Source: a virus
DNA length: 27,030 nt
Virus record (IMG/VR): IMGVR_UViG_3300046171_000269
Span: 1 to 27,030 of that record
Strand: one strand, 5' to 3'
The notes under the pieces were generated by a model. That model did not search any database. It worked only from the letters and a program-made list of their open reading frames with translations, and was not told where the DNA came from. Position numbers and translations under genes: made by a program. This document shows, in pieces, positions 3 through 8,864 of the stretch (positions within the stretch are counted from its first letter, which is position 1; each line of letters opens with the position of its first letter).

Positions 3-1124
3 TTTGGGGCAAACATCTGGAATATGCCGGGGATTGGTGATGCAGTCAGTTTGGGTGCTGAAGCAAACTATGATTTAATGAAGTTGTTTCATCAGAACAA
101 ACCTACCAATTCAACAACAGGTCGTAAAAATCCAACTGTAATTAATGGAAGTTGGGGATATCAGGCAGCATTTTCTTCAGGTAATACTGTTTCATATAAG
201 TTTCAAGGTAGCACAGGAACATTTACAGGTAATGATTCTGTGAGTAATCAAGTGACTGCGATGAAAGATGGATTAAATAATCAAGTGACTGGTGCTTATC
301 GATCATGGTCTACATCATCAAGATCAAACTCGACTGACACTGCAGCAACTGAAATGATGGCAACAGGTGTGATATATGTTGCTGCTGCTGGAAATAATAA
401 TCAAAGACTTGGTGTTGGTGCAGATGATGTGGATCGTTTAAATTATTTGTCAGATAATTATTATAGTACAACAGATCCGAGATCAGAGTTTCCATCAGGA
501 ACCGTACCATGTAATCATCGTGACTGGATGAATCCACAGGGTAATGGTTTCGATAGTACAACTGATTTTCATCCAACCATATGTGTAGGTGCAATGGAAG
601 AGTATGTTGCAAACGGAACACTTCCATATTCAGGATCGACTGCACTTGCAGAAACAAAAGCATCCTATTCCAATAATGGGCCCGGTATCGATGTCTGGGC
701 ACCTGCTGATGAAACATTATCTGCTGGTACTAATGGGGTGTCAAGTTATGAAGACTTTGCCAGACCTGATGATGGAATAAACTATACAAGTAGCACGACT
801 GGCTCTGATTATTTTGATAGTAATTTTAATGGTACATCTGCAGCAGCACCAGTGGTCACGGGTTTGATTGCACTTTATTTGGAAACAAATCCATCCGCAA
901 CATCTAAACAGGTCAAAGATTTTCTCTTTGAACAGGGGTCAGTTGTGGTTGCTGATGCTCTATATGCTGATCAGTATTCTGATGATTCTCAAACAACTTA
1001 TTGGACAGGATCATTTAATATGAGAGGTGCTCAGAAAAGAATACTTCGTGATAAGACTGCAAGTCCAACTGAACCATCAATCAAAGGTGTCACCGTAACT
1101 GGTGTATCCATTAAACAATCATAA
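3..1124 (+). CDS. Subtilisin-like serine protease (peptidase S8), 5'-truncated
   Basis: The reading frame is open from the first bases of the window, so the gene begins upstream; the ATG at 24 is probably internal. Counting from that Met, the visible part has the S8 landmarks: N-G-S-W-G-Y near residues 41-46 (substrate-strand region), V-A-A-A-G-N at 119-124 with the oxyanion-hole Asn at 124, T-I-C-V-G-A near 185-190, and G-T-S-A-A-A-P-V-V with the nucleophile Ser at 272 (bases 837-839). The catalytic Asp and His lie upstream of the window. After the catalytic core only about 70 residues follow. It sits directly upstream of the fibre cassette and its stop codon is built into a late promoter, so it is probably itself a late, virion-associated or processing protein. 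That role is inferred; the fold call is strong. Confidence 0.85.
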   Translation, partial: FGANIWNMPGIGDAVSLGAEANYDLMKLFHQNKPTNSTTGRKNPTVINGSWGYQAAFSSGNTVSYKFQGSTGTFTGNDSVSNQVTAMKDGLNNQVTGAYRSWSTSSRSNSTDTAATEMMATGVIYVAAAGNNNQRLGVGADDVDRLNYLSDNYYSTTDPRSEFPSGTVPCNHRDWMNPQGNGFDSTTDFHPTICVGAMEEYVANGTLPYSGSTALAETKASYSNNGPGIDVWAPADETLSAGTNGVSSYEDFARPDDGINYTSSTTGSDYFDSNFNGTSAAAPVVTGLIALYLETNPSATSKQVKDFLFEQGSVVVADALYADQYSDDSQTTYWTGSFNMRGAQKRILRDKTASPTEPSIKGVTVTGVSIKQS

Positions 1125-5718: not shown

Positions 5719-8700
5719 ATGGGCATTCAGATAAACGGAAATACGAATAATATAAATGCCGGTATTGGTTCTTTAAGTATTGAAGATATAAATGAACTTG
5801 ATATTGTTGGTGTTGCCACTGCTGCTAATTTTAAAACAGGTATATCTAATTTACACTCTGTTGGTCTAACATTAACCGGTGGTCAAATAGATGTAGGAAG
5901 TAATATTAAAATAGGTAATGCAGGTGTTATAACTGCAACAAGTTTTGTTGGGTCTGGTTCTAACTTGACTGGTATTATATCAGATAAAATATTTGAAGGA
6001 AATACAAAAGCAGAAGTTGTAGATACTGGATCTGATGGGAAATTTATAGTTGAAACTGAAGGAACTCAACGATTAGAAATAAATTCAACAGGTAATATTA
6101 CATTAGGAACTGCATCTGCTACAGGTAATAAATTATATTTCCAATCAGCATCTGGTGCTGCACAATATATTGCATCTGGTGGAACTAATAATCGAGACTT
6201 ACTAATTGCATCTTCTTCTGGAACATGGTTAAGTATCACATCAACTGGTGAAGTAAATATCGGTGGCAATTTCACTGAAACATCTCATCCTTTTAACATA
6301 AGTCATTCAACTAAACCATCCCTTGCTCTTCACACGGGCACAACTCTTCGTGCTGATTTTTCTGCTACTAGTGGTATAACCAGTATTAGAAGTTATGCTA
6401 ACAGTCCATTCACCATAAACATTGGTGGTTCTGGAGAAACTGAAGCACTTCGCATCACAGGAGACGGTAAACTTGGTGTCGGTGAACTTTCCCCATCAAA
6501 TGCATTGCATATTTCTGGAACTACAGGTACTTCTGCTGGTGGTCTTTTAAGATTAGATGCAACGACTGGTGATAACTTTATTTTATATGATAATACTCAT
6601 GATAATTCTGAATGGGGCTGTCGGAAATGATTCTGCCACAAGAGGTAATTTTGATTTTTGGTATAATAGTGGAGGTGGTTATCCCTCAAATCCAATTGTT
6701 CGTTTTAATACAACAGGTGTCACAGTACAGGGTAACACAGTCGCTGATGATAATACTTTAACTGCAATATCAAAAACTGCAAGTTCAAGTACTTATGTAG
6801 ATGTATTTGTATATGATACAAGAAAGGATAGTGATGGTGGTGCATGGAGACATCGTACTACTAACACATCTTGGTATAATGAAACATTAAATACTTCAAT
6901 TCGTGGTGCGAGAAGAGAATTTCCACAGGTTGCTATTGTTGCAGTAGGTGTTTCATACATTCATATATTTGATGCAGATGATCCTGATATGCCAATGTGG
7001 ATGGAGTTTCCTGCTCCCTCTGGTGGTGCAAGAAATGTAATGTATGGGCCAGGCAATCCTCGTACAGTGTACATGTTAAATGGTATTCTTTGTACAGGGT
7101 CACAATCCACAAGTCATTGGCCAATTTTAATTGATTTTATTCGTGATGATATACTTGGATTAATGGAAGCAACTGGACATCAGCAATATAACGGAAGACA
7201 AGGAAATATTTCATTAAGAAACTCAGCAACATCCGATAGTGGTTTGTGGTGGCCTGGTACTATAACTGGTTCTGGAGGTGGTGCTGGTGCGACTCAAGGT
7301 GCTATGGTTACAAAGAGATGGTGGTTTGATGGTCTTCTCGTAAATAGATTTGTAACTAGCGTTGTGATGAGTGTAAGACCAGAGGCACCAATAGATAAGA
7401 CAACTGGTATGCAGATCCCAACAATTTACCTTGGTTCTAGAGGTGGAGTGAGTATCATTCATTCTAATGTTGGTGATACTGGAACATCTTATAATTCAGG
7501 TGTTTATGATATTACTTCAAATAATGCTGACTATAGTGCTATTGGTGATATTACAATCACAGAAGAGGGTTTCCTTTGGGGATTATGTGACAGTTATCAA
7601 AGTTTTGCAACCTATCGAGATTCCGTTGTAATAGATCTTAAACGCCTTGATAATCAATTGAATGATATAGTGACAAGACCAGACACTGATACTATAACAT
7701 CAGGTTTGAATAATCAAGGTGGTGGAAGTACAAACAAGGGTAGAGAATATTATTGGGTATCCACAGGTGGTGAGGGTGGGTCTCATAAGATTGGATATTC
7801 TAATACTTGGGGCTGCCACTATTGTAGAAAGAAATGGTTGGGGTTGTTCTGCAGGTTTTGCACTTCATACAAAACCAATTTATACTTATGATCATAAAGA
7901 AAGTAGTAGTTTTTTAGTGCGTTCTCATGAAAATCGTGGATTAGTTGCTATGATTACGAAGGATTATAATACAGGTTGGCATATGACAGGAAGCGTAATC
8001 TCATGTTGTTACATCGCTGATGGTTTAACTTCATCAATTAGTGGTGCTGATGCAATGATTGATCGTGGTCATCATGCAAGACAACTTGGTGTTACTGGAA
8101 CACTTACAAGAGCAGCATGTGCAACAGGTTCAGATTTGACTTGTGTATCAGGGTTTAATAGTAGTAACCATGCTAGAACAATTAATGCAAGTTTAAATGC
8201 TGGCAACCCAATCGATATAACATTGATGGGATGGATAAAAGTTACAGATATCAGTAGTTATTCTTATCTCTGTAGTATAACAACAGGATCTGCTAATATG
8301 GGAATTGCAGTTCATTCTAGTGATTCTACAAGTGGTGGAAAACCATATTTTTATGATAGTACTCACGGATCACTACAAGGAGATAAAGGAGTAAATGATG
8401 GAGAGTGGCATCATGTTTGTGGTGTGTTTTCTTGTAGTTCAAATCGTAAAATTTTATATGTTGATGGTGTGAGAAGTGGTGGAACAGTAGCACCATCGAA
8501 TGTAGATTACAGTGATTTAGATACAATTGCTGTTGGACATTGGTGTAACAATGATAATACAATAAATCATTCTTGTACAGGTTCTCTTGCACTTGTAAAA
8601 CTTGGTCAGACCGATTTAACTGACCAACAAATAAAAACAATTTACGAAGATGAGAAAAAATTATTCCAACCAAATGCGAAAGCATTCCTTTATGGAAGTA

Positions 8701-8864
8701 GTAATGGAATTAATGCAATTGGTTATGATGAAAAGAAAGAAATATATCATGTTGGAACATCATCTGGACGCAGTGACTTCAGTGGGCTAAGTAGAATAAA
8801 TAATACAACCACCGCAGTCACCACTGCTATCTCAGCATATGACGGTCTTATCGCAGAACAGTAA
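5719..8864 (+). CDS. Long tail fibre protein with LamG-like C-terminal domain (two one-base frame breaks)
   Basis: Three overlapping frames (5719-6630, about 6602-7891, about 7803-8864) join into about 1047 residues if one base is dropped at each of two TGGGGCTG sites (6613-6620 and 7808-7815). The N-terminal part has G-V-x-T-A-T-S-F-V-G-S-G-S-N-L-T shaft repeats and a G-L-T-L-T-G-G-Q-I-D-V-G-S-N block shared with the fibre at 10323. The middle is Gly/Trp-rich and unrecognised. The last 250 residues contain D-I-T-L-M-G-W-I-K-V and D-G-E-W-H-H-V-C-G-V-F ... Y-V-D-G-V, the signature wording of concanavalin/LamG-type sugar-binding jelly rolls. This domain is unusually Cys-rich. It probably binds host surface glycan (inference). 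The stop overlaps the next ATG. Confidence 0.75.
5827..5976 (+). repeat. Shared fibre block, copy 1 (mate at 10572-10721)
   Basis: A 150-base block encoding N-F-K-T-G-I-S-N-L-H through G-S-N-L-T-G-I. It aligns without gaps to 10572-10721 in the fibre gene at 10323. Confidence 0.75.

Follow-up and report, generated by a model that had tools for sequence, protein, structure and literature searches.

S8 proteases in marine T4-like cyanophages

The presence of S8 (subtilase) protease genes in cyanophages is already known. A cluster of S8 peptidases in P-HM1 and P-HM2 is mentioned by Sullivan et al. 2010 (PMC3037559), where the virion proteome of S-SM1 is also reported. In GenBank, members of T4-GC 292 (PSSM2_297 of Prochlorococcus phage P-SSM2 and SSSM7_232 of Synechococcus phage S-SSM7) bear the note 'contains PF00082 domain', and newer cyanophage records use 'subtilisin-like serine protease'. 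The 'sheath subtilisin' of two papers, one of which gives PF04984, is a domain of the tail sheath and belongs to a different family. Searches of the open-licence literature (main texts) turned up no study of what a cyanophage S8 protein does, and no description of a cyanophage tail that cuts proteins.

Here, we analysed a 27,030-base contig (the window, meaning this whole stretch of DNA), at the start of which lies part of such a gene. PSSM2_297 and SSSM7_232 have the domain order and catalytic triad expected of its full-length form, as well as its place before a gp9/fibre gene, but are only about 29–30% identical to it over the part present in the window and are recorded as hypothetical. Closer in sequence are the S8 proteins of Sf-CH8, Sf-CH5 and S-T4 (57–64% identity, annotated hypothetical), which have similar neighbours, although these phages were isolated on Synechococcus and the phoH and gp32 genes of the window are closer to those of P-SSM2. 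S-SCSM1_228, annotated 'baseplate wedge subunit (virion protein)', combines the same N-terminal domain (N-domain) with S8, but is 1,411 aa long and has two Laminin_G_3 stretches. The reading that we prefer, with a probability of roughly 0.45, is that the S8 protein is a self-activating virion tail protease that cuts host-surface proteins and is made late with the fibre or baseplate gene upstream.

A truncated subtilase gene at the contig edge

The remainder of the window is T4-like, encoding thymidylate synthase, PhoH, helicase loader, gp32, baseplate wedge, tail-tube cap, head closure, tail tube and hub proteins, and its virus is one of marine cyanobacteria. The contig start falls inside the S8 gene, whose frame is open from there to a TAA stop (373 aa), while the N-domain and the codons for the catalytic Asp and His lie off the contig. 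The features retained are as follows:

3–1124, + strand: C-terminal 373 aa of a Peptidase_S8 (subtilase) gene; open frame with PF00082 and phrog_9158 matches
393–395, + strand: oxyanion-hole Asn codon (AAGN), invariant in 38/38 rows of alignment A1
837–839, + strand: catalytic Ser codon (GTSAAAP), invariant in 38/38 rows of alignment A1

Both motifs, which a sequence-only reading had called intact, were found in this frame, and the protein has the catalytic Ser and the oxyanion Asn. The S8 assignment of that reading was borne out by PF00082, which the fragment matched across profile positions 110–270 of 288 (E 3.9e-15) with 56.3 bits against a curated cut-off of 21.8, and phrog_9158 was matched with an E value of 5.8e-46. 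The full gene product is predicted to be about 655 aa; the complete relatives L010 and L011 are 653 and 655 aa long and are 88% and 85% identical to the window protein (best segment).

Active site and fold of relatives

Relatives were used to read the part of the gene that lies off the contig. A first scan of IMG/VR for S8 relatives gave 56 loci and a second kept 80 of 135; alignment A1 comprises 38 rows, namely the window and 37 of the 56 first-scan loci, with near-identical or cut loci omitted. Among the rows covering each position, the active-site residues were conserved throughout (Asp 36/36, His 37/37, Asn 38/38, Ser 38/38). Across 17 phage isolates and 3 contigs, His, Asn and Ser were each present in 20/20 and Asp in 19/20, with a Glu aligned at the catalytic Asp position in S-CAM1. 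The locus L009, 94% identical to the window, covers only the His of the Asp/His pair. With all four residues kept in every covered row of A1, the protease is probably active, as had been proposed. The same proposal would have been contradicted by an upstream sequence without Asp and His, which was seen in no relative examined (the window's own pair being off the contig). An apparent absence of the His and Ser motifs from many relatives proved to be an artefact of too strict a pattern, as all are present in A1. Likewise, we rejected an S8 protein without the N-domain in S-T4 (L003/L095), since its annotation begins at an internal start codon and translation from an in-frame ATG further upstream lengthens it from 588 to 638 aa.

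An AlphaFold2 model of full-length L010 (pLDDT 79, pTM 0.80; PF00082 score 67.4 bits) has the subtilisin/proteinase K fold, matching proteinase K-type subtilases with Z about 31 over ~275 residues (model range 88–638). One such match was keratinase 5wsl (Z 31.8, 2.4 Å over 278 residues), and the catalytic domain is modelled as proteinase K-like. The N-domain of L010 (first 88 residues) was folded alone (pLDDT 86). In its VIA-align search, rows 1 to 11 consisted of nothing but subtilisin propeptides, pro-proteases and the inhibitor POIA1 (Z 6.1–6.9), although the unrelated, non-propeptide family Mesd/Boca tied at Z 6.1 in row 12 and all of these values are <8, under the level where a match stands by itself. 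Foldseek returned no significant match for the N-domain (best E 0.04, not a propeptide), and Pfam gave no Inhibitor_I9 in L010 residues 1–88 at E up to 1. Given the propeptide-like fold match and its place directly before the enzyme, the 88-aa N-domain is likely a propeptide, and its resemblance to subtilisin propeptides makes self-activation of the protease likely.

By inspection, there is no room for a signal peptide in the S8 chain, which opens with the first strand of the N-domain. An enzyme fold without a signal-like N-terminal stretch would suit a soluble protease, intracellular or released at lysis, that degrades host proteins. This is improbable, however, given the conserved place of the gene among structural genes, the fusion to fibre modules and the virion tag on a relative, which are described below.

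Gene order and a late-promoter-like element

The sequence-only reading placed the S8 gene at the head of a fibre cassette. Gene order in relatives does not agree. Of 66 distinct relatives, 56 have an upstream ORF of at least 100 aa whose stop falls no more than 10 nt from the S8 ATG, the commonest positions being −1 and +1. This count started from 67 distinct relatives (identical proteins once), 66 of them with enough upstream sequence, and omits L015, L061, L108 and L111 (short or shifted starts) as well as loci cut by contig ends. The abutting upstream ORFs matched tail-fibre PHROGs in all three cases scanned, the gene upstream of S8 in S-CREM1 begins with a T4 gp9/10-like domain, and the S8 neighbours in cyanophage isolates are mostly baseplate or fibre genes. 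Two features mark the other end of the gene:

1121–1134, + strand: late-promoter-like ATAAATAACTAAAA over the S8 stop codon, with exact repeats at 2982, 4725 and 9834
1144–2352, + strand: gp9-type baseplate wedge/tail-fibre connector region (phrog_677 positions 235–409) with fibre repeats, by PHROG match

The sequence NATAAATA is a reported cyanophage late promoter (PMC2984593). Exact copies of ATAAATAACTAAAA lie where genes meet in the fibre region, compared with a chance expectation, allowing up to 2 mismatches, of 1.3. In relatives, [ACT]TAAATA occurs over the S8 stop in 44 of 54 (10 misses; fusions >1,300 aa and loci with <300 nt downstream left out), versus about 1% of random 24-nt windows. 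The 60 nt preceding the S8 start contain it in 11 of 67, nine of which are long fusions without an abutting upstream ORF. From the abutting ORF and the motif at the S8 end, we infer that S8 is the last gene of an upstream fibre/baseplate unit and not the first of the fibre cassette, with the promoter-like element of the next unit on its stop codon.

The earlier count of six fibre genes downstream is also uncertain, since several of these ORFs overlap in different frames. Overlaps of neighbouring fibre ORFs at 2330–2352, 6557–6630 and 7719–7891 give the impression that frameshifts have split one or two fibre genes, and the true number may be lower. Further along, positions 7719–8864 contain a Laminin_G_3 (ConA-like lectin) domain (E 1.6e-11), the type fused to S8 in L059 and S-SCSM1.

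The gp9/connector-like protein at 1144–2352 contains a cupredoxin-like stretch (GHPFQI ... FYQCTSHGSM), as do L053 and L069 (6213–6719). The H and the C-x2-H-x2-M of this stretch could form a type-1 copper ligand set, with amicyanin-like spacing. The equivalent small gene of S-SCSM2R is annotated PetE and has sub-threshold cupredoxin matches, and a stricter motif was found in 8 of 85 loci, within the downstream 2.5 kb.

The coupling of S8 to an upstream fibre gene, with a gp9/fibre gene following, and its late-type setting could also be expected of an assembly protease, one that trims neighbouring fibre or baseplate proteins in virion maturation much as the T4 prohead protease acts for the head. 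We consider this unlikely, as one lineage has S8 within a fibre-like polypeptide, a better fit to a mounted enzyme than to a free processing one. Moreover, many cyanophages seem to be without S8 (S8 in 57 cyanophage or marine records, phoH in about 468, duplicates included), which suggests that it is dispensable for the group. This dispensability weighs on the tail-enzyme reading as well.

Fusions and virion evidence

In the loci L112–L119, L122 and L123, S8 makes up the N-terminal region of 1,397–1,647-aa proteins, and both long fusions scanned (L115 and L122) have tail-fibre PHROGs further along the chain. Laminin_G_3 domains are joined to S8 in L059 and S-SCSM1. A 2,140-aa virion structural protein of S-TIM54 (L007, 3979–10401) combines esterase-like, S8 and immunoglobulin domains, and a phrog_677-type connector stretch is inserted between the N-domain and the enzyme in L053. 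Most complete S8 members (about 640 aa) have no recognised binding domain, which weighs against a tail-mounted enzyme.

The S-SCSM1 homologue (SSCSM1_228, 52% identical to that of P-SSM2) carries a 'virion protein' note in its record. Mass spectrometry identified 45 virion proteins in S-SCSM1 (PMC9602691), against 48 CDS tagged as virion protein in the record by hand count, and the tag is therefore close to, but not identical with, the mass-spectrometry list. It does not look like a simple guess from function, since it is attached to a translational repressor but missing from the short tail fibre. For S-CREM1, 14 virion proteins are reported, with the peptidase unnamed in the passages concerned (PMC9964418). 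Together with gene order, the fusions and the virion tag uphold the earlier link between S8 and tail fibres or the virion; the fusions to tail-fibre and lectin-like modules and the S-SCSM1 tag point to a tail-mounted enzyme.

The fusions are also relevant to a self-cleaving adhesin, in which catalysis would serve autoprocessing only and the domain would afterwards be used for binding, in the manner of PCSK9. The lectin-like and fibre fusions, the phrog_677-type insert and the esterase and immunoglobulin domains of S-TIM54 are in keeping with such a role, as is the prominence of PCSK9 entries in the structural search, where they rank behind the proteinase K types. Yet divergent members keep the full active site, oxyanion Asn included, which seems more than a single turnover would require. 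This is not decisive, but leaves the adhesin quite doubtful.

Three roles had been suggested earlier: processing of fibres, action of the virion on host surface layers, and release at lysis. The data lean towards the second. As a self-activating tail protease, the gene product would be a full-length, catalytically competent subtilase with a propeptide-like N-domain and no signal-like stretch before it, produced late together with the fibre or baseplate gene just upstream. The enzyme would cut its own propeptide and become active, and the mature form would be incorporated in the virion at the tail fibre/baseplate region, consistent with the tagged relative. On adsorption, it would cut surface proteins of the picocyanobacterial host, its presumed substrate.

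Possible exchange between phages, and distribution

The window PhoH is 81.7% identical to that of P-SSM2, 75.8% to Sf-CH8 and 75.0% to S-T4, and gp32 is about 81% identical to P-SSM2 and 69.6% to S-T4. The order is opposite for S8 (63.7% Sf-CH8, 56.9% S-T4, 29.4% P-SSM2). A third core gene, gp48, departs from this pattern, being nearest to AG-345-L05 (51.8%) and not to P-SSM2. With phoH and gp32 nearest P-SSM2 and S8 nearest Sf-CH8, there is limited evidence, from sequence comparison, that S8 was exchanged independently of these two genes as part of adhesion-region exchange, as would be expected of a host-facing module. In cellular genomes, only 1 of 23 pattern matches was a true S8 relative, on a contig of the Prochlorococcus single-cell assembly AG-337-J18 (L134 1–438; S8 C-terminus, 50% identical), which probably represents an infecting phage.

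More broadly, and more tentatively, S8 might be an exchangeable, self-activating tail protease module of marine T4-like cyanophages that cuts host surface proteins at entry and whose specificity helps set host range. Such a module would usually be encoded on its own, in translational coupling with a fibre gene, and would sometimes be fused, either into a fibre of roughly 1,640 residues or to lectin-like domains. Few receptors of Prochlorococcus and Synechococcus viruses are known. Were S8 part of the virion, it would suggest for these abundant ocean viruses a way of entry that can be tested, and homologues are already at hand in the isolates P-SSM2, S-T4, Sf-CH8 and S-SCSM1.

Comparison with known systems

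Sugar-cutting phage tails are familiar, and the proposed S8 tail enzyme could be regarded as a proteolytic counterpart of polysaccharide-cutting tailspikes. Fold and triad, and probably the order of propeptide then enzyme, are shared with proteinase K-like subtilases (aqualysin I, keratinase 5wsl and ProteinT 8c4z). These are cellular enzymes, however, and the Asp-to-His spacing here (101 residues) is longer than that of subtilisin (roughly 30 residues). The window gene joins an uncharacterised cyanophage family, the tail link of which is now firmer than most annotations state.
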